From a virus: a stretch of DNA of 49,848 nucleotides. The position numbers were made by a program, and so were the translations under genes. The first letter of the stretch is position 1, and each line of letters opens with the position of its first letter. The stretch is from positions 1-49,848 of the IMG/VR virus record IMGVR_UViG_3300044985_000034; one strand, given 5' to 3'. Under the pieces are notes generated by a model. It worked only from the letters and a program-made list of their open reading frames with translations, was not told the origin of the DNA and ran no database searches. This document shows, one piece after another, positions 7,773-49,848 of this stretch.

Positions 7773-8612
7773 CGTAACCCTCCTCGGGTTGTGTGTTAAT
7801 GTGTTTACTACTACGCACAGAGCTCTGGACCTTTGTAGCGATTATTGTCTTGTAGGTCGTTAAGACTACTACCTTATCAGATGTGCGTATGAGTAAACAT
7901 ACTATTTAATTATGTTTGTATACTGCGGCTTATCCCCGTTAGCGTACGGGCTGAACCCGCGCCCTTCGTTTCAAACTGCTCGCATCATTATATGTGTTGA
8001 CCCTCCTAGTTACCTCAGTCGTGGCCTTTGACTTCTAGTATACAAACGTAATTATTGTGAGCAGTTTAAACACATGCTCAGGTATCTTGTTTACGTCTTA
8101 TAGTGACGAGATGGACTCACCTCCTATGCGCTTGTTATAGTCTGGATAGTGACTTGTAGGTCTTTCATCTACTGTGTCAGTTTTTATACTATTTATATGA
8201 CCAATACTAGTTGCAGCTCAATATTGTTTATACTCAGTTCTCTGCTTCGAGTTACCTTTTAAAGAGTTGTATCTCTAGGGAGTTGCGGTTCGCCCATTGT
8301 ACCGACCTAGTTTTGTCCGTAGGAGGATTCACCCATTGGATGCCTACCCTTCCGTGGTAGGTTGCTTTTCGCTTAGAGACGTAACCAGCCTCAACTACCT
8401 TGCTTACTTTTATATCCCAAAGGTGTTAGATAAGTACTAGGTTTAACGAGTCTGCTTTGCTCGGTATTTTACATCTACTCGATGTAACATCAGGGCGACT
8501 TAGGTTTGAGCGCCCACTGTTTACGACCAAGCTAGTTGTCGAGTCTATACTAGACCAAGGGTTTGCTTCTGAGTTTTAATGGTCTGACTAGCCATACGCA
8601 CCATAGTAGTCT
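7773..8612 (-). ncRNA. Large structured gene-free region; candidate giant ncRNA (GOLLD/ROOL-like)
   Basis: No credible reading frame occupies these 840 bases between the endolysin and the 66-aa gene. The minus strand folds extensively. An 11-bp helix pairs 7914-7924 with 8037-8047. A 9-bp helix pairs 7973-7981 with 8059-8067 and crosses the first, making a pseudoknot. Two 7-bp helices (7803-7809 with 7892-7898; 7813-7819 with 7882-7888) stack into a long arm. Local hairpins lie at 8469-8487, 8493-8515, 8343-8361 (loop contains GGAA) and 7935-7950. Motifs such as CAATGGGYGAA occur twice. Size, structure and phage setting resemble GOLLD-type RNAs; identity is inferred, not shown by a covariance model. 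Confidence 0.7.
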
Positions 8613-8996
8613 CTACCAACGAGCTGCGATACCACGTGTATCTACGTGTACGAAGCCATCTTTAGGGTAATACCCGATACCAAGCAAGTTGGCATACGGT
8701 AAACCCTTAACTAGTAAATGTAGCTCTTTAGTGCTCATACCTTCTACTCTAATGTCAACCGCATCTGAAAGAGGGTCTTCATCTGTAGACTTATGTTCAC
8801 TGTTCTTACCACCACCTACACTACGGTTGTATTTAGTACATCTTGCTCCTGAGGATAATACTACTGGAGCATTAGCCTTCTCTCGAATATGTTCTAATAC
8901 AATGAGTATAGCAATGGACAAGCCACCAGTACCACAGCAAGAGCATACACTCTTACTGTCAGTTGCTTCTGTAAAGTGCTGTGTTTCATATTGCAT
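8613..8996 (-). CDS. Endolysin: peptidase M15-family domain
   Basis: A 127-residue zinc peptidase of the M15 / D-Ala-D-Ala carboxypeptidase fold, predicted to cut peptidoglycan cross-bridges at lysis. The metal motif is SEHKSTDEDPLSDAVDI (about 74-90), matching SxHxxG...xxD with His and Asp ligands. The distal HVD (about 118-120) supplies the third ligand and catalytic acid region. An N-terminal CSCCGTGG precedes the domain. There is no signal peptide, so release would need a holin. Holin candidates are far away at 28 kb, so the lysis genes are split. The start has an AAGGAA site. Confidence 0.85.
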   Translation of the reverse strand: MQYETQHFTEATDSKSVCSCCGTGGLSIAILIVLEHIREKANAPVVLSSGARCTKYNRSVGGGKNSEHKSTDEDPLSDAVDIRVEGMSTKELHLLVKGLPYANLLGIGYYPKDGFVHVDTRGIAARW

Positions 8997-15439: not shown

Positions 15440-15458
15440 AGTGCCTCCTTAGTTAATA

Positions 15459-15552
15459 TGGTACGGGATGTAGGATTCGAACCTACCCGCTACACCTAGT
15501 AGTGTAACACCTCCTCAATAGAGGCGCGTCTTTCCAACTCCGCCAATCCCGT
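15459..15552 (-). tRNA. Type II tRNA with Leu-like body; anticodon ambiguous
   Basis: The 94-nt minus-strand sequence has a perfect acceptor stem (ACGGGAT with ATCCCGT), encoded A73-CCA, a D arm GCG/CGC with GG in the loop, a long variable arm (TACAC/GTGTA) and a T arm GTAGG-TTCGAAT-CCTAC. The long variable arm makes it Leu, Ser or Tyr; A73 and the D arm favour Leu. The anticodon arm is odd. The fully paired register gives loop TATTGAG, lacking U33. The canonical register gives loop ATTGAGG and anticodon TGA (Ser), with a C-T mismatch in the stem. Confidence 0.85.
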
Positions 15553-16170
15553 GTAAATTTGTTTATGTGTACATCTTTCGAACAAAGATGTACATGTAAC
15601 CAAACTCTACCACTCCAACGGCTGCTTATGACCTTGTAGGGAGTGGCTTGTTACGATTCTAAACGGTACATTTTAACTACGCATAATTTATTCCTTTAGT
15701 TATAAATAATAATCCCTAAACAACCTAACGTCTAATGTGCCAACTTCTGTATACCAGATGTGCAAATTCAGTTAAAGGTGTTTAGGAGTATTACTCAAGT
15801 ATGCCATTCTGGCTGAGGTTTGTTGCCTCGTTATACCGAATTTAATCGGTTGACTATACGTGTAAGTATAAATCCGATAGCACACTGGGGATCGCCAATG
15901 TACTAACGAGTTATACTAATATCATCTTATTTTATACACTAGGTGACAAAGTGTACCTACTTATACGTGTTGAACCTACGGATAAGCAGGATTTCCGGAT
16001 TTAGCTCCTATTTGTGGAATTTATCGTCCACCCACCTGATCAAGGCTTCGCCAACATGTATAGGTACATGGATAGGTAGTCTCTAACCCTTACACTATCA
16101 TCTAAGGGTATACGCCCACCTTAGGAGTGGGATTTCTGCTTACTGTCTGGACAAGTCCATCCTAATAAAC
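15553..16170 (-). ncRNA. Second large structured gene-free region, directly upstream of the tRNA
   Basis: About 620 bases without a credible gene lie between the terminator after the 153-aa gene and the tRNA. The minus strand has many pairing elements. These include an 11-bp hairpin at 15568-15594 just before the tRNA, a 7-bp stem 15610-15616 with 15640-15646, an 8-bp stem 15715-15722 with 15779-15786, and hairpins at 15835-15850 and 15935-15955. A 7-8 base segment at 15983-15989 can pair either with 16136-16142 or with 15622-15628, so alternative folds exist. Length and tRNA linkage resemble ROOL/GOLLD-class phage RNAs. Assignment is inference. Confidence 0.62.
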
Positions 16171-16200
16171 TTTATAAAGCAACCTACATTAGTAGGTTAC
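16171..16200 (-). terminator. Hairpin terminator after the 153-aa gene
   Basis: On the minus strand a 7-bp stem (AACCTAC/GTAGGTT, loop TAAT) is followed by GCTTTATAAAG. It lies 24 bases after the stop of the gene at 16222-16683 and at the 5' border of the structured region, so it could end the early transcript or mark the RNA's start. The T run is short. Confidence 0.55.
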
Positions 16201-16221
16201 TTGAAAAGCTTACTACAAGGA

Positions 16222-16683
16222 TTAACCTTCTAGTTCTTCAGCTTCGCCTTCTACGTCAGCTTCTAAAGCGTCTAAGTCAACGCCTTCTGGAGCTTCTTCT
16301 GCAATAGGGTCTTCTAAAGACGCTGCTGCAACTTTTACTTTGTTCGCAGGGTTAGCTTTAAACTGTGCTGCAACGATAGCTTCATCGAATGCACCTGCGT
16401 CTAAGCCAGCTTGTAGTTGTTCAGTGAACGCTACTACTTGCTCTGCTGATGCGTTGATACGAGTTGCTTTTGGAGCTACTGCATCTAATGCTACTGTGAT
16501 ACGACCAATTGTTAATGTTAACGCTTGAGTACCGTCTTCTTTAGCAACTTTGTTACCGTCTTTAATCTTAACCGCTAAACGCGCTTCTTCGATTGTTAAC
16601 AGGTAAGATGGAGTAGCTGAACTTGAACGTGAGTTGTTGTTTGCTACGGCTTGTGTTGCTAGTGCTGAAAAGTCAAATGACAT
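16222..16683 (-). CDS. Acidic hypothetical protein (153 aa)
   Basis: A 153-residue protein starting MSFDFSALATQAVANNNSRS and ending in a very acidic tail (EADVEGEAEELEG). The middle is Ala-rich with strands (YLLTIEEARLAVKIKDG, TLTIGRITVALDAV). Codon use is regular and Ala-rich, like a highly expressed protein. The start resembles the FSAL/SAIG-QA starts of the phage exonuclease and ssDNA-binding-type protein, and the acidic tail is also SSB-like, so a DNA-binding or DNA-mimic role is conceivable. I do not recognise a family. Confidence 0.8.
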   Translation of the reverse strand: MSFDFSALATQAVANNNSRSSSATPSYLLTIEEARLAVKIKDGNKVAKEDGTQALTLTIGRITVALDAVAPKATRINASAEQVVAFTEQLQAGLDAGAFDEAIVAAQFKANPANKVKVAAASLEDPIAEEAPEGVDLDALEADVEGEAEELEG

Positions 16684-17247: not shown

Positions 17248-17499
17248 TTACTCCACAACTATTACGTTGCTGTTGTTAAACTGTTGTTCTTCAAGGGGAT
17301 ATAGACGTAGTGAGTTCTCTTCACAGTCGTCTGCTGTTAACTCATGCTCTGTTAGGCATGATGTCATGAACTGGTGGCGCATTATATCGTTGGCTTCACC
17401 GCCAAACATATTGGGTGCTATTGCGCCTGCTAAGATGCCGAGGATAGCTATTACTATCATCAGCTCTATTAGCGTGAAACCCTTAGTTCCTCGTATCAA
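17248..17499 (-). CDS. Type IV prepilin-like protein
   Basis: An 83-residue protein with a complete prepilin leader and N-methylation motif: a short basic leader (MIRGTKG), then FTLIELMIVIAILGILAGAI. Gly at -1, Phe at +1 and Glu at +5 are all present, so host prepilin peptidase (PilD type) could cleave and methylate it. The hydrophobic helix is followed by a small domain with two cysteines (TSCLTEHELTADDCEE), like the disulfide loop of pseudopilins. The start is TTG at 17499 with GGAG 8 bases before it, overlapping the SPFH gene by 17 bases. This is very unusual for a phage. It may insert into or block the host pilus or secretion system. Confidence 0.88.
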   Translation of the reverse strand: MIRGTKGFTLIELMIVIAILGILAGAIAPNMFGGEANDIMRHQFMTSCLTEHELTADDCEENSLRLYPLEEQQFNNSNVIVVE

Positions 17500-19112: not shown

Positions 19113-19365
19113 TGTCGGTTTCCTTTTGTTGTGAATTTGTTGGGCATTGTCGGTATCCCCTCCCGTCCCGCTTTTGACCTTGGCGAGTCTCCGAGCTGCA
19201 CTTAGTGATTGAACGGTGTTACGTTCAGCCTCGCAGAGCTCTTTTGACCTTAGCGTCAGGATGACAAGAGCGTTAGTGCTTTAGCACGCAGGGAAGACGA
19301 AGTCTTTCATGAACGCCCATCTTGTGACCTTAATCTTTAATCACTAAATCTTTAAGACCTTGACC
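19113..19365 (-). promoter_or_regulatory. Intergenic control region with TAAGGTCAA repeats
   Basis: This 253-base gap holds no gene. On the minus strand it carries four copies of the motif TAAGGTCA or close variants (plus-strand ttgacctt at 19174, 19244, 19325 and 19360). Two of them are extended to TAAAGATTAAGGTCA and lie 35 bases apart. A hairpin (GTGCTAAAGCAC) sits near 19282. It follows the early RNA polymerase by two transcription units, so the repeats may be promoter or operator elements; this is inference. Confidence 0.5.
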
Positions 19366-19756: not shown

Positions 19757-21766
19757 TTAGCTAAATAAGTATGTACTCTCTAATACATCTGTTAAGTTCA
19801 GCCCGTTATCTTCTTGTTCGTATTCTTCCGATATACCCATAGCACTGTATAGTGTTTCAAGTGGTTTGGCTTGTATCACTTCTACATATGCGATTCTTAC
19901 CGCTTGTAATGCTTTTCTAACGTCACAAGTTTGTACACCTATATCATCATGTATACAACTGATATCGCTATCAATATAGTTAACTGCTTTACGCAATAAC
20001 TCGCTATCTAAAGAATGAACAAGATTAGGTGCAATACCGCGTGCAAGTGCTTCATGGTCTGCAAAGCTATCACCTGTTAACTTTGCCGTATAGCTTGAGC
20101 CGTATAGGTTCAATGCTTGGCTGTTCATAGGTTTTAGTTTTACTTTAATATCACTTAACTGGTAGGTGATAGACGTTAAAAGATCTTCACCTTCGTTTTT
20201 GCGTGTATCTTGTATGTCTTTTAAATCAATTTGTAAGTAGTTGTTAAGTTTAGTTATTGCCGCGAATTCCGCGTCAATGGCTGACATAATAAGTTTTTGT
20301 ATGCTCTTGGCGTTGTTTGTGCGTTCGTTGTTCTCTTTCAAGAACTCTCGAACGGTGCGTATAAGTGTATCTTCCCCAGCACCATACGCTAATATCATAA
20401 CCACTTTTTTAGTGAGGTCACGCATATACTTTTTAATTATGTTTCTATCTGTTCCTTTCTTTGCTAGTTTTAGCGCTGTTTCAGCTACTAACCCGTAACA
20501 ATCTTCGGGTTCATCGTCTGGCGAACTAATACCAACGTTTACCGCTTTAGCTGTTTGCGAGTCTAAAAATAAGCCTGATGTTATTTGAACACCCGAACAA
20601 GTACCATCAATACGCGCGATGATGTTTGTTAACCCACTCGTTTTATATTCAACGTATGCAAGGCGCGAACGCTCTGCATATAATGAATCACTCGGGGTTG
20701 TCATTAGTTTTATATGGTTATTCTTCACCCATGTCATACGGTCTGTGATGCTTGCTTTATCGTAACCGTGAGCGTTTGCTATGTGTAAGAATAAGCCGTA
20801 TTCGTCCACTTTTGTATAGTTGGCGAAATCAAATGCTGCCCTCAAATCCTTTACACCTTGGAAGGTAGTTAAACCACCTCGTGCATATGCTCTGCCTCTA
20901 TAATCTGGTGTGTGTGGAAAATAGTAAGCTTTGTTCATAGACAATTCCAGCATAGATCTCATTGTTGCTTCTAATGGTTCACCGTCTACAGTCTTCTTAT
21001 ATAGACCTTTCTTCAAATTCTTTTTGATCTTGGCGCGTATGGTGTTGTTAACGATGTAGCCTGTATGCCCCATTTTATTTAAGGAGTCTATAAAGTGTTG
21101 CGTTACTTCTTCGTTAAAATACAAGTTTGTAAGCTCGCATACTACGCGCATACCTTTCTTATACCATGTTAAAGGGAACAGCATTGGTTTCATTTTTGGC
21201 TTGGCATGTTCCCACATATCGATCATGGTACTTAATCTAAGCTCTATTATTTCAGCAGTCGCCGCATTACCTAAGAAAGTGTGTCCTTCCTCGCTTTGTC
21301 CTTCTGTTAACTCACTGACTATTATTTCATCAATGATAAACTGTTTAACAATCGCCTGTGCAATTGCTGTAATATCTATTGTTTGTACTATTAATACACT
21401 GTCTTCATCGATCCAGTTTTCTATCGCGGTAGCTATATGATTTTCAGAGGTGTAACCGCTCATTAAAACACTATAAGCCGCAACCATGTATAAACTAGCA
21501 TTTAAGCTCTGTGGCATCCCCTTAGCAGTTTTCATACCTTCAGGGAATACGCGTATCGTTTCTTCTTCAACCACGTTATCAGATAAGCGCGTTATTATGT
21601 TGCCAGTTAAACGGCTAGCTAATTGGTTTAAGTAAATACGCTCTTTACCACCTGCAACCATGAAATCTAGTTCCATTTGTTTAGTAGTACAAGCCACGTT
21701 ATCAAGTACCGTGTTTTGTATTACTGCAAAAAGTTTGGCTATTGGTGTGTTTATATTGTTTAACAT
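19757..21766 (-). CDS. Second, divergent single-subunit (T7-family) RNA polymerase
   Basis: A 669-residue DNA-dependent RNA polymerase. T7 catalytic motifs are intact: TPDYRGRAYA near 286 (T7 DxRGR), motif A RIDGTCSGVQITSG (D387, T7 D537), motif B RDLTKKVVMILAYGAGE (R449, K453, Y461; T7 R627, K631, Y639) and motif C CIHDDIG (H606-D607; T7 H811-D812). The C-terminus LNLTDVLESTYLFS parallels T7 LNLRDILESDFAFA. The N-terminal domain is about 150 residues shorter than T7's. It occupies the early gene-1 position, has a GGAGC ribosome site and its own terminator. The other polymerase (1-1133 plus 48425-49848) is closer to T7 and lies before the late genes. Confidence 0.95.
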   Translation of the reverse strand: MLNNINTPIAKLFAVIQNTVLDNVACTTKQMELDFMVAGGKERIYLNQLASRLTGNIITRLSDNVVEEETIRVFPEGMKTAKGMPQSLNASLYMVAAYSVLMSGYTSENHIATAIENWIDEDSVLIVQTIDITAIAQAIVKQFIIDEIIVSELTEGQSEEGHTFLGNAATAEIIELRLSTMIDMWEHAKPKMKPMLFPLTWYKKGMRVVCELTNLYFNEEVTQHFIDSLNKMGHTGYIVNNTIRAKIKKNLKKGLYKKTVDGEPLEATMRSMLELSMNKAYYFPHTPDYRGRAYARGGLTTFQGVKDLRAAFDFANYTKVDEYGLFLHIANAHGYDKASITDRMTWVKNNHIKLMTTPSDSLYAERSRLAYVEYKTSGLTNIIARIDGTCSGVQITSGLFLDSQTAKAVNVGISSPDDEPEDCYGLVAETALKLAKKGTDRNIIKKYMRDLTKKVVMILAYGAGEDTLIRTVREFLKENNERTNNAKSIQKLIMSAIDAEFAAITKLNNYLQIDLKDIQDTRKNEGEDLLTSITYQLSDIKVKLKPMNSQALNLYGSSYTAKLTGDSFADHEALARGIAPNLVHSLDSELLRKAVNYIDSDISCIHDDIGVQTCDVRKALQAVRIAYVEVIQAKPLETLYSAMGISEEYEQEDNGLNLTDVLESTYLFS

Positions 21767-22081: not shown

Positions 22082-22517
22082 AGTACTCTCCAGTTGTTTA
22101 CGGTTATCACGGTTGTTCGTTTTCGGGCGTAACGCTTGTAACTCAGGTGAATAGGTTGTACCAGTCGCGCTTGCGCCCTCGAAGAGGTTGACTTGTACGT
22201 TCTAGGCACTTGTGTTTCAACTTGAGTGAAGCCGCAAACGGACGAGTGTGATAATCATAGCACCGAGAGTGTTGTCTAACTAAACAGAAGTGCTTAGTGA
22301 TACTTACAATATCAGTGGTAAGTAAGATTTACTTGACCTTATCTTTTGAACTTAATCTCTTGAACTTGACCTTAATTACTGCCCGTCTAGCGAGAAGCAT
22401 TTAACGTCTCTTTGTTAAATCTTGGAGTAGGGAGAGTCTTTTGACCTTCCCTTATTCCCTAACTAATTATTACGTTGTAAGCTACTATAATCTTTACTAG
22501 TAACTTATACTTAATAA
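22082..22517 (-). promoter_or_regulatory. Gene-free control region upstream of the early RNA polymerase operon
   Basis: These 436 bases contain no convincing gene. They hold at least three TTGACCTT(A) motifs on the plus strand (22333, 22366, 22441) plus the variants TTGAACTTA at 22346 and TTGAACTT at 22360, a density not seen elsewhere. Several GC-richer imperfect inverted repeats lie at 22140-22260. It separates the first early block from the polymerase operon, so promoters or operators are likely, but I cannot fix a start site. Confidence 0.5.
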
Positions 22518-43488: not shown

Positions 43489-44088
43489 TTACACATCAGG
43501 GTCACCAAAGAAACGTTTATTACCTCGTGCATATGGGAATACCCCACCACGCGCTCTAGCAATTCTAGGATTCTTGAAGATGTTGTATTGACCTTCTTCT
43601 AGTTCCTGCTTCTTTAAGTCTAAGAATGATTTACCAGCGTCTTCCTTTAAAGATTGCTCTTTCTGGGCGTCCTCTAGTTCATCTCGTACAAACTCTGCGG
43701 CTGCTGAGTAAGCTACTGTTTCTTGCATAACCTGTGGCATATCATCCCATTCTAGGACGTATGTAACACGGGTTAGTACCACGTTGTCGGTAAATACTGC
43801 TGTCTGTAATTGTTTGTCGTAGAGTCTGCGACCACGTAATACGTAGGTGCTGTTCTCTGCCACTAAGGACGTCACTGTCTCAGGTACAATAATTGCACCT
43901 TGTTCATCGGGTGCTGTGGTGATGTTGTAATCAATGTTACACCACCAACCTTTCCGTTGTATACGTCTACTTACACGTTTCATTGTAGCTCTGGCGTTAG
44001 CCGCGTCTGGATGATCTGTGTCTATCGAGTTTACTGGGGAAGACCCAATCAACCTGAGTAACATGTTTAATGTTTCTAACTCGTTCAT
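43489..44088 (-). CDS. Tail tubular protein A (gatekeeper), T7 gp11-like
   Basis: A 199-residue head-to-tail adaptor. MNELETLNMLLRLIGSSPVN is the typical opening, followed by ARATMKRVSRRIQRKGWWC and the loop RRLYDKQLQTAVF. Length equals T7 gp11 (196 aa). AGGAG precedes the start, after the capsid terminator. Confidence 0.93.
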   Translation of the reverse strand: MNELETLNMLLRLIGSSPVNSIDTDHPDAANARATMKRVSRRIQRKGWWCNIDYNITTAPDEQGAIIVPETVTSLVAENSTYVLRGRRLYDKQLQTAVFTDNVVLTRVTYVLEWDDMPQVMQETVAYSAAAEFVRDELEDAQKEQSLKEDAGKSFLDLKKQELEEGQYNIFKNPRIARARGGVFPYARGNKRFFGDPDV

Positions 44089-44111
44089 TGAGTCGTCTCC
44101 TGTTGTTTAAT

Positions 44112-44145
44112 ATTATTCATAAAGCCCACTAACTAAAGTGAGCTT
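44112..44145 (-). terminator. Terminator after the major capsid gene
   Basis: Minus strand: AGCTCACT, loop TTAGTT, AGTGGGCTTT, then ATGAATAATATT. The stem has one G-T pair. It lies in the 75-base gap after the capsid gene, the same place as T-phi in T7. Confidence 0.75.
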
Positions 44146-44163
44146 GAGTATAATACTAGTCTA

Positions 44164-45234
44164 CTACGAGGTAGTAGTAAAGATAGCTGCCGCCATCTCT
44201 GCACGATTCGGAGTTACACCGAACGCTAAGTATGAATCAATGAACCATTGTAACTCAATATCTGAGTAGTAGACTTTAGAAGTCAATGGAATTGTTTCAC
44301 CTGCAAGTAATGCTTTAGGTTGTAAGAACAAAGCAATACATTTAGCATCGTTAGCTGTTACATCGTAAGCGTTACCGTTACCCGCGTTAGACAAGAAATG
44401 AGTTTGACCTACATCTGATGCTGCTGGGAAGCGGTTAGTTACTTGAATACGTACACCATTCGCTTGAAGTACTTGACCTTTAGCGAAGTCACCGTTCATC
44501 TCTGAGAAATCACGGTCTAATAACTTATCGTTACGTAGTAAAGTGTAATACTCAGCAGGACGCACTAAGATAACACCATCAGAAAGCTCTACGTCTTTCT
44601 CTGCGATAGCTTGGCACATGTCTTGAATGGCACGTACTAACTTATCGCTATCAGCTTCATCACCTAAAGTGGTAAGCATGATAGGTGTAGCACCTTGGAA
44701 TCCTTCTGGTGCTGTACGGATAATCTCCGTATAACCACCAACGCCACCTAACCAACCACCTAACTTAGTACCCGTTGGGTCTTGGTTAGTGATTTGTGCG
44801 GCTTTGATACCTTGCACGATGAATGCTTCATCGAAGAACTTACCGATAGTACGACCATGTTCCATACCTACTTCTTTACGCACATCTAAGTGAGCTAGGA
44901 AGTCGTCTAATAAGAACTGGTTGGTACGCGCTAATACGATAGTATCTACTTTAACAGAGATGTTATCGAATGTAGGGCTTGAATCAGTAGGACGTACACC
45001 GCGACTAACTTTCTGTAAAGCTGTGAAGCCCATACGGTCGTTAGTTACTGTGTCTGTACCACGTACTGACTTAAAGTTGAAGAACTGGCGCATGAAAGAT
45101 TCTTTCAGGATGCGATGTTCTACTTCACCACCGTATTGCTCGATGAATAAAGGGTTGACTGAACCACTGTTGATTCCGCCTTGGTGACCGTCACGTACTT
45201 GTGCTTGCGCGACTGCTTGACCGATAATTGACAT
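44164..45234 (-). CDS. Major capsid protein (T7 gp10-like)
   Basis: A 356-residue HK97-fold capsid protein. Recognisable segments are NPLFIEQYGGEVEHRILKES, FFNFKSVRGTDTVTNDRMG and LARTNQFLLDDFLAHLDVRK, as in T7-type capsids, with a conserved C-terminal ELQWFIDSYLAFGV. Length is close to T7 gp10A (345 aa). The strong AGGAGA site suits abundant expression, and a terminator follows. Confidence 0.94.
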   Translation of the reverse strand: MSIIGQAVAQAQVRDGHQGGINSGSVNPLFIEQYGGEVEHRILKESFMRQFFNFKSVRGTDTVTNDRMGFTALQKVSRGVRPTDSSPTFDNISVKVDTIVLARTNQFLLDDFLAHLDVRKEVGMEHGRTIGKFFDEAFIVQGIKAAQITNQDPTGTKLGGWLGGVGGYTEIIRTAPEGFQGATPIMLTTLGDEADSDKLVRAIQDMCQAIAEKDVELSDGVILVRPAEYYTLLRNDKLLDRDFSEMNGDFAKGQVLQANGVRIQVTNRFPAASDVGQTHFLSNAGNGNAYDVTANDAKCIALFLQPKALLAGETIPLTSKVYYSDIELQWFIDSYLAFGVTPNRAEMAAAIFTTTS

Positions 45235-47928: not shown

Positions 47929-48468
47929 TTAATCCTGATGTGTTAGTTGGTTTGAATAACTGATGAACTCATCGTAGTTATCAAACGTTAAGTCATCAAC
48001 TAGTTCATCAGGGTTACTGACGTCCGTTAAGTGTGCTGTGTTCCAGACTGCTTCCTCTGGTGCATACACTACACGTTGAGTACCTGCCTTACTTATAAAT
48101 GTACAAGGGGCTACATACTCGTTGTGTCCATTAGAGTCTATTACAATAACTCGACCTGTTGAGATAATGTTAACTAATGGCCGCTTATGTACACGGCTAA
48201 GAACTATAGAACCTTTCGGTATTAATAACTCCCGTACGTATAACCCGTCAACCATATGGTTAGTTACATTATCTTCTAGCATGATTTTAGCTAGGTCACC
48301 GTCTTCATTGAATTGCTCTAAGTAAGCACGAAGTGGACGTACTTCTTTGTCGAACGTAGTAGGCGTAAGTCCTGCTAAGCTCGCTGAAATTATTTGGAGG
48401 TTTATTCCCTCCGTGTGTAGGGCTTTAGCCAAAGAAGTAAGTGGCTTTTGTAATGTCGTCAATGTCAT
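47929..48468 (-). CDS. Cupin-like/beta-barrel hypothetical protein (179 aa)
   Basis: An open frame continues to 48615, but GGGGAG lies just before ATG at 48468, which overlaps the polymerase 3' end by 44 bases, so I start there. The 179-residue protein has a helical N-terminus and a beta-barrel-like region (GSIVLSRVHKRPLVNIISTG, then VIVIDSNGHNEYVAPCTFIS) that resembles a cupin/jelly roll with a buried loop. Related proteins sit between polymerase and portal in T7-like phages. The function is not known. Confidence 0.7.
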   Translation of the reverse strand: MTLTTLQKPLTSLAKALHTEGINLQIISASLAGLTPTTFDKEVRPLRAYLEQFNEDGDLAKIMLEDNVTNHMVDGLYVRELLIPKGSIVLSRVHKRPLVNIISTGRVIVIDSNGHNEYVAPCTFISKAGTQRVVYAPEEAVWNTAHLTDVSNPDELVDDLTFDNYDEFISYSNQLTHQD

Positions 48469-49848
48469 AATCTCCCCGTGGTAACCCTCGGGTCGATACA
48501 CCCTGCTGATCCGCCCAATGACGGATTGGGTCTGTTTTAGTATACATATGGCGAAATGCTCGCCTAATGGTCTTAAACAGCTTACCAGTGTTCCCAGCGT
48601 GTGTACCGAAATCATCGTGAATCATTGCGTAGGAATGTAAATCTACCGCATTGATAGTTAATACCATATGAGAGCTATCAACCGAATGTACGAAATTTGG
48701 TGAAATCCCGCTCCGTTGACCTGCTAGGTATACACCACCTGCGTTAGCATCTGGTACATACAACTTCACTTTACCTTCCAAGTGTGTGCACACCTCCACC
48801 ATGTTGTCTATCTTATAGTGTTGGTATACTGGAAAGCCGATTATTGTCTTCCACTGACAAAAGTCTGTCCCTACGTTCTTTTGAAGCCATGCCATAGCAG
48901 CTCTCGCAGCGACCACTACCTCACCTATGGCTGACCATAGTATCGGTGTAAGGTATTTAGCCATTGCCCACTGTTCTTTCTCGTCCATATTGAACTTAGT
49001 CCAGTTATCTAGTACATATTCGAATATGTAGTTTCGGGCTGACTGCTGAGTAGCTCCATAGGGAAGCGTCATTACAGGTCTTTTGGCGCACTTACGGGTA
49101 ATGCCCACCTGTAACCAGATTTTAGCTAACGCACAACCATCATCAGCTAATACTTGTAGCTTGTCGGTTGTAACTTGCGCTACCTCTCCGTAAATATCTT
49201 CGGGTTTATCACAGTCTAATAGGTTAGTAGCTTTTGCGCCTACTTCGTCTCTTAACATTGCTGAGAAGTGTTGAAGTCCATTACAACTACCATCTAGCCC
49301 TACAGCTAAATGACCTATTGCTTCTGGGTTTCTACCATAGTCAGAACGTCCCCATTCAAAGCAGAATGCTAGGAACTGATATGGTTTGTCAGCTTCACTC
49401 CATTGAGTGTTGCTAATTGGGTCTTCAACGATAGCGCGGATTAATGGTTCGTTGTCTAGTACCCATTGGACTCTATCCTCGTAAGGTAGTTTGTCCTCAC
49501 CAAATACATTAGCACCTTGTATTGCTAACCATTTAATGCCCTCTTTACCAAGTCTCACACCCTTATCGAATCTTAACAATCCTTTAGCTGAGTCTGAACC
49601 TTGTGGTGATAAACCTGTTGTAGCACAGTATATACGTCCTCTAAAGTCACAGTTGTACACGAAGTACAGGCTGTCCCATGAACGTAGTTCTTGTGCTAAT
49701 AGATGTCCTTGTCGGAATCCTATCACTTGTCCTTTACGTTGACGCTCGTTATCATGTTGTTTCTTACGTAACATCTTCCAAGCTGTGATTTCATCTATTT
49801 GTTCTTGTGTATGTGTACCTTTTTCAACATCTGCTAAGTGCTCTGGGA
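48425..49848 (-). CDS. T7-type single-subunit RNA polymerase, C-terminal part (gene continues at the other contig end)
   Basis: This is the catalytic half of the 797-residue polymerase whose start is at 1133. T7 motifs are almost textbook: CDFRGRIYCATTGLSPQGSD near 390 (T7 DWRGRVYAV), motif A GLDGSCNGLQHFSAMLRDEV (about D509, T7 D537), motif B TRKCAKRPVMTLPYGA (about K579, Y587) and motif C AMIHDDFGT (about H734-D735). The C-terminus DIDDITKATYFFG has the expected aromatic foot. The last 163 bases are duplicated at 1-163. Its stop overlaps the cupin-like gene. Confidence 0.95.
   Translation of the reverse strand, partial: PEHLADVEKGTHTQEQIDEITAWKMLRKKQHDNERQRKGQVIGFRQGHLLAQELRSWDSLYFVYNCDFRGRIYCATTGLSPQGSDSAKGLLRFDKGVRLGKEGIKWLAIQGANVFGEDKLPYEDRVQWVLDNEPLIRAIVEDPISNTQWSEADKPYQFLAFCFEWGRSDYGRNPEAIGHLAVGLDGSCNGLQHFSAMLRDEVGAKATNLLDCDKPEDIYGEVAQVTTDKLQVLADDGCALAKIWLQVGITRKCAKRPVMTLPYGATQQSARNYIFEYVLDNWTKFNMDEKEQWAMAKYLTPILWSAIGEVVVAARAAMAWLQKNVGTDFCQWKTIIGFPVYQHYKIDNMVEVCTHLEGKVKLYVPDANAGGVYLAGQRSGISPNFVHSVDSSHMVLTINAVDLHSYAMIHDDFGTHAGNTGKLFKTIRRAFRHMYTKTDPIRHWADQQGVSTRGLPRGDYDIDDITKATYFFG
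49686..49848. repeat. Contig-end direct repeat, right copy
   Basis: Copy of bases 1-163 with T at 49721 versus A at 36. It supports circular closure of the contig; the true length without duplication is about 49,685. Confidence 0.95.

Follow-up and report, generated by a model that had tools for sequence, protein, structure and literature searches.

In T7-type phages, the intercistronic processing sites are RNase III hairpins, and the primary origin of T7 lies near its RNA polymerase gene. Viral tRNA-like structures and the tRNA-like domain of tmRNA keep an acceptor stem and a T arm while their anticodon arm is altered. Among the large RNAs of phages, ROOL and GOLLD are often found near tRNA islands (PMC12286853). 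The window analysed here, a 49,848-base IMG/VR virus record, contains a gene-free region that adjoins a tRNA-like element and that recalls each of these systems in part.

The minus strand of the window carries the genes of a primase, a DnaB-like helicase, a DNA polymerase and two single-subunit RNA polymerases. According to the primase and a gp8-like protein, the closest named relatives are the Alteromonas phages vB_AspP-H4/4 and vB_AmeP_R8W (genus Foturvirus), hereafter H4/4 and R8W, and the phage of the window is Foturvirus-like and of T7 type. Its RNA polymerase genes (48425-49774 and 19757-21766, minus strand) are of two different single-subunit types (Pfam RNA_pol, E = 3e-91 and 2e-28), and two RNA polymerase genes are likewise reported for H4/4 (PMC5658483). 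Besides, a small ORF at 17248-17499 (minus strand) displays a type IV pilin-like N-terminal signal, GFTLIELMIVIAILGILA, which is unusual for a phage. Four IMG/VR contigs from one metagenome (L004-L007) are identical at the locus and were counted as one sequence, L004. In the latter, the first codons of the helicase occur twice, at 8691-8746 and from 8927 onward, which represents a partial duplication: 18 residues, with 94% identity, precede the complete gene. A GTDB search for helicase relatives returned a single distant match that was not useful, a search for phage promoters through repeated words gave nothing convincing, and sigma-70 and terminator scans stayed at background level.

On the minus strand, the gp8-like gene (16683-16222) is followed by a hairpin (16202-16176), the structured region, the tRNA-like element, a small ORF and the primase. 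The structured slot has an RNA polymerase gene on one side and the primase on the other. Since the replication genes are read from the minus strand, the structured region is on the transcribed strand, and since the tRNA is placed at 15552-15459 on that strand, the gene-free region stands immediately 5' of it. That the unit ends in a tRNA, as an earlier first-pass annotation had stated, is supported by both ARAGORN and Rfam. The features of the locus are as follows.

16176-16202, minus strand: hairpin past the gp8-like gene, either terminator-like or a processing site, with a counterpart in L004
15596-16150, minus strand: RNA body, 5' end at the high coordinate, ends predicted; z = -4.7, top-ranked windows
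16124-16130, minus strand: 5' strand of P1, CCACUCC, pair probability 0.99 at full length
15610-15616, minus strand: 3' strand of the 7-bp P1, GGAGUGG
15999-16133, minus strand: conserved core, aligned with L004 and folded the same in each (model R1), one compensatory pair
16114-16121/16074-16081, minus strand: core helix
16104-16109/16086-16091, minus strand: core GAUGAUAGU hairpin
16056-16069, minus strand: core hairpin AUGUA-CCUA-UACAU
15999-16013, minus strand: single-stranded core block AAAUAGGAGCUAAAU
15923-15954, minus strand: module M3, hairpin ACACU-UUGUCACCU-AGUGU followed by AAAAUAAGAUG
15552-15459, minus strand: tRNA-like element with encoded CCA (ARAGORN and Rfam, 35.4 bits)
15439-15323, minus strand: small ORF before the primase, whose SD AAGGAGG begins at most 15 nt past the tRNA
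15357-14557, minus strand: primase

The first-pass annotation had described 15553-16170 as gene-free, and indeed no SD-bearing ORF lies on the minus strand within 15440-16221, the longest chance ORF of the region being one of 47 aa on the plus strand. It had also described the region as structured, which agrees with a z of -7.7 for 15553-16215, a value obtained from only 20 shuffles and with the flanking hairpins included. When the body alone (15596-16150) is folded, thereby leaving out an 11-bp hairpin and the terminator-like hairpin, z amounts to -4.7 on the coding strand versus -2.4 on the opposite one, and none of 60 shuffles folds as well. As controls, 17 stretches of about 600 nt taken from the minus strand, most of them coding, gave z values between -0.4 and -4.2. 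When the minus strand of the whole genome was scanned in 249 windows of 200 nt, the four that cover 15441-16240 were all among the first 11. Considering this above-background fold and the conservation in a relative, the proposal of a large structured non-coding RNA is very probably correct for 16150-15553. At another place of the minus strand, 44041-44240 gives the strongest local fold of the entire strand (z -7.3); it occupies the gap beside gene 44164-45234, which resembles the major capsid gene, and is likely a terminator hairpin. The gene-poor stretches 19113-19365 and 22082-22517 (minus strand) have the repeated string AAGGTCAAAAG in common, and the former has a partial match in the contig L167.

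Regarding the predicted structure, the 11-bp hairpin announced at 15568-15594 is exact (UGUACAUCUUU-GUUCG-AAAGAUGUACA) and stands directly 5' of the tRNA on the minus strand; it is absent from L004. The 8-nt segment 15982-15989 (CUGCUUAU), said to be able to pair with either of two distant partners, is indeed complementary to both. More precisely, it pairs with AUAAGUAG at 15957-15964 with a probability of about 0.99, whereas AUAAGCAG at 15622-15629 is a perfect complement whose pairing has a probability of 0 in the full-length fold, and this alternative therefore exists only on paper. A more credible candidate for a competing long-range pairing, overlooked by the annotation, is provided by CUCC at 16124-16127. 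In the models, it is partnered either with 15610-15613, within P1, or, as part of CUCCUA (16122-16127), with UAGGAG at 16005-16010, in a rival helix that forms in the isolated core. Because P1 takes the CUCC that closes the core helix, two mutually exclusive long-range states are predicted. For the middle of the RNA (about 15640-15920), no homologue has been found so far.

L004 retains the order of gp8, hairpin, RNA, tRNA, small ORF and primase, with a shorter RNA (about 330 nt), a second tRNA-like element 5' of it and an additional stem-closed module 3' of the tRNA. A core of 155 columns is alignable between the window and L004, with the invariant blocks AAAUCCCACUCCUAAGGUGGGCG, AUGUACCUAUACAUG and AAAUAGGAGCUAAAU, although the primase beside the RNA is only 72% identical between the two. 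When folded separately, both cores give a closing helix CUCCUA/UAGGAG, an inner helix AGGU../..ACCU and the GAUGAUAGU hairpin, in which one C-G pair of one sequence is replaced by A-U in the other in a compensatory manner. An absence of conserved structure in relatives, named by the annotation as an argument against the RNA, is hence not what is observed, L004 folding its core alike. The core model R1 detects no homologue with a convincing E except the window and L004. In the 15.5-16.2 kb RNA, the core and M3 have one compensatory pair each, numbers for which shuffles do not exclude chance. Because the core is represented by two independent sequences and M3 by four with a single compensatory pair, covariation within this RNA taken alone is suggestive, not decisive. 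Comparison of the whole region by blastn with 50,697 phage records yielded tRNA pieces and short chance matches only. As search blocks against IMG/VR, AAATAGGAGCTAAAT proved too short (101 mostly chance matches) and CCCACTCCTAAGGTGGG also matched an unrelated terminator in contig L008; both were set aside. Near the AAATAGGAGCTAAAT match in L028, L066 and L078, a sequence resembling a group I intron seems to interrupt a tRNA in its anticodon region.

Two slots were compared across the relatives, namely the one between gp8 and the primase and the one between the lysis gene and the DNA polymerase. In the window, the latter slot holds the following features.

7773-8612, minus strand: second large RNA, between the lysis gene and the DNA polymerase, apparently of the same modular family
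8447-8463, minus strand: module M2, in the 7773-8612 RNA
8106-8156, minus strand: module M7, in the 7773-8612 RNA

This sister RNA folds with a z of about -3 and matches the contig L128 over 180 nt at 87%, and over 29 further bases without a difference. The idea of two large RNAs in one phage is supported by the fact that 7773-8612 is also conserved, its M7 hairpin covarying across eight phages. The direct comparison of the two regions that the annotation had suggested connects them through modules common to the RNAs of relatives (L132, L003, H4/4 and R8W). M3, with the consensus hairpin UUGnCAnCU followed by AAAAUAAGnUG, recurs in L003, H4/4 and R8W, there upstream of the DNA polymerase and directly followed by M7, and its hairpin shows one compensatory pair among these three and the window. 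The M3 of the window scores 41.9 bits against that of L003, where 1000 dinucleotide shuffles reach at most 31.9 and 139 other window segments at most 33.7. In L132, the primase slot combines elements from the two window RNAs: the 7.8-8.6 kb RNA is represented by M2 (E = 4e-8) and M7 (E = 2e-11), and the 15.5-16.2 kb RNA by AUGUACCUAUGCAUG and CUACAAAUAGGAGCUAAAU, which are singly weak but collinear. With 32.8 bits, versus up to 31.9 for shuffles and up to 33.7 for other window segments, the match of L132 to the primase-slot RNA appears weak on its own.

In the M7 hairpin of the eight phages, 97% of the cells are paired and six cells are changed on both sides, which is equalled by 1 of 500 shuffles. 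The M7 model recovered G001, H4/4 and R8W, none of which had been supplied to it, and against 530 kb of unrelated viral contigs it found nothing better than E = 0.5. Judging from the sequences, support of a helix by compensatory change is strong only for this M7 of the sister RNA. From the M3 and M7 scores, the M7 covariation and the blind M7 matches, we conclude that the shared blocks are homologous RNA modules that move between slots. Taking a family to comprise RNAs that lie in either slot and have at least one module (core, M2, M3 or M7) in another phage, the 15.5-16.2 kb RNA falls within it. Since related phages, among them cultured Alteromonas phages, carry pieces of them in shuffled arrangement, the window RNAs look like members of an undescribed modular family of large RNAs from Foturvirus-like phages; no description of them was found in the literature searched, of which journal coverage was partial. 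Matches of the 7773-8612 RNA to the roseophages SIO1, P12053L and ICBM1-3 (25-27 nt, E = 0.07-0.9), located at or near a short gap after the ribonucleotide reductase gene, were taken as chance.

The tRNA-like element of the window folds into a cloverleaf with acceptor, D, anticodon and T arms and CCA, on a body that we take to combine a tRNA-Leu-type D arm with a long variable arm. Its loop UAUUGAG presents the anticodon UUG (Gln) with A33 and without U33, which departs from the anticodon loop of a decoding tRNA. Thus, while the cloverleaf, the encoded CCA and the 35 bits obtained with the Rfam tRNA model are those of a phage tRNA-Leu or tRNA-Gln gene, the element differs from such a gene by its UUG and A33 on a Leu-type body, by its homologue in L004, at the same place (34.2 bits), whose loop has another length and no assignable anticodon, and by the constant position of this type of element behind a structured RNA. 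In G001 and R8W, an element inside the RNA of the DNA polymerase slot keeps the pairing of a 7-bp acceptor and a 5-bp T stem through three double changes, lacks a normal anticodon loop and ends in GCUA instead of CCA, and G007 has one tRNA-like element above the Rfam cut-off and one below. tRNA or tRNA-like structures therefore recur in the RNAs of the family (G001, R8W, G007, L004 and the window), and their anticodon loop is frequently unusable; the only strong ordinary tRNA is a tRNA-Met of L120 (79 bits). We infer that the tRNA-like parts may serve processing or mimicry rather than decoding. A search for tmRNA found none. The papers on R8W (PMC8228385) and H4/4 (PMC5658483) report no tRNAs.

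The reading that we favour, with somewhat more confidence than doubt, is that of a structured, tRNA-linked and tRNA-processed RNA of a new family. Made from the minus strand as part of an early transcript, an RNA of about 560-600 nt would end in the tRNA-like element; its 5' boundary would be marked by the hairpin 16176-16202, and a cut by RNase P at 15553/15552 would form its 3' end and free the primase mRNA. Such a tRNA-directed 3'-end formation is plausible because the unit ends in a tRNA-like element. If the constant loops carried on changing stems are taken as contact sites, the released RNA would work in trans as a scaffold or a tRNA mimic, a role whose chances we place just short of even. 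Its more elaborate form, a new class in which hairpin modules are shuffled between two loci and non-decoding tRNA mimics are displayed to act in trans, for instance as an RNA assembly or by baiting host factors that target tRNAs, is tentative and rather unlikely, these examples included. The region could instead be a cis-acting intercistronic leader or spacer with no job as a free RNA, a serious rival against which we lean only slightly. It would keep gp8 and the primase operon apart, and likewise the lysis gene and the DNA polymerase; cut by RNase III or RNase P, it would determine where the mRNAs end, how stable they are or how accessible the ribosome-binding site is. In line with this, every RNA of the family directly precedes an SD, either that of the small-ORF/primase operon or that of the DNA polymerase, the closing stem in H4/4, R8W and G001 extends into the SD of the DNA polymerase (GUAAAUAAGGAG or AUAAAUAAGGAG), and where the primase slot has no large RNA (L122, R8W and H4/4), it still has a simple hairpin. 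However, a multi-branched RNA of 600 nt with tRNA-like parts and constant loops far exceeds the needs of a processing site, and the modules, being exchanged between slots ahead of different genes, are not tied to one downstream gene.

The variability of the primase slot, which contains a nucleotidyltransferase gene in H4/4 and a short hairpin in R8W, and the degenerate look of the tRNA-like elements would also suit a decaying island of tRNA and genes with chance structure and no present function. This is improbable in view of the compensatory changes and constant loops, of the strand specificity of the folding signal, and of core blocks that are identical in L004 despite the divergence of the primase. 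The gene in the slot of H4/4 argues as well against a DNA element such as a replication origin, which the place between an RNA polymerase gene and the primase brings to mind by its resemblance to the T7 primary origin; as the fold signal is stronger on the transcribed strand and the constant-loop hairpins and compensatory stems are RNA-like, we deem it exceedingly unlikely. A group I intron, or a remnant of one, beside the tRNA is barely conceivable: the string UUAGAGACUACC, which presumably resembles the conserved R element of such introns, is not conserved in L004, no Rfam match to such an intron was obtained at E <= 10 and the region lies before the tRNA, not inside it, notwithstanding a 15-nt block that also occurs in the apparent tRNA intron of L028, L066 and L078. 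Finally, the first-pass annotation had proposed a ROOL-type RNA, which is not borne out, Rfam RF03087 being unmatched at E <= 10 in either region. Since a dedicated ROOL search matched no control genome, this negative depends chiefly on the relaxed cmscan. Neither RF03087 (ROOL) nor RF02032 (GOLLD) is matched at E up to 10 in the window or in eight related records. Apart from the tRNA, the relaxed-threshold Rfam scans returned meaningless microRNA matches at the 11-bp hairpin and a few sub-threshold chance matches. A divergent member of either family is consequently very unlikely, despite the similar size, phage origin, adjoining tRNA and multi-branched fold (PMC12286853).

Should the favoured reading of a processed, tRNA-linked RNA be true, the cultured Alteromonas phages H4/4 and R8W would offer a tractable system for large phage RNAs. 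It raises the testable questions of whether phage tRNA-like elements act as RNA-processing ends or mimics as opposed to decoding, and of whether conserved loops mediate RNA assembly or binding. Like the processing sites of T7-type phages, the window RNAs are structured spacers between early genes, but they are far larger and contain tRNA-like elements and mosaic modules. As in viral tRNA-like structures and the tmRNA domain, the elements of R8W and G001 keep the acceptor stem and the T arm with an altered anticodon arm, with the difference that they lie inside RNAs of dsDNA phages. With GOLLD, the 15.5-16.2 kb RNA shares the trait of a large phage-borne RNA beside or containing tRNAs, which alone does not make it a GOLLD, together with multiple branches, constant loops and the combination of one conserved and one variable part (PMC12286853). 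In contrast, the window RNAs have no match to RF02032, which covers a conserved 3' domain, and no shared sequence with GOLLD was found; they measure 560-840 nt, belong to a small lytic T7-type phage and have modules swapped between two slots. To ROOL, they are close by a size near 570-600 nt, phage origin, vicinity of tRNAs and a complex fold, whereas RF03087 is unmatched and the loops UUGnCAnCU, GAUGAUAGU and ACUAnnAA are, as far as tested, exclusive to the present set. ROOL and GOLLD exemplify the very large RNAs, as yet unexplained in their purpose, that phages produce, and the family of the window would be a further one, invisible to the models of both.
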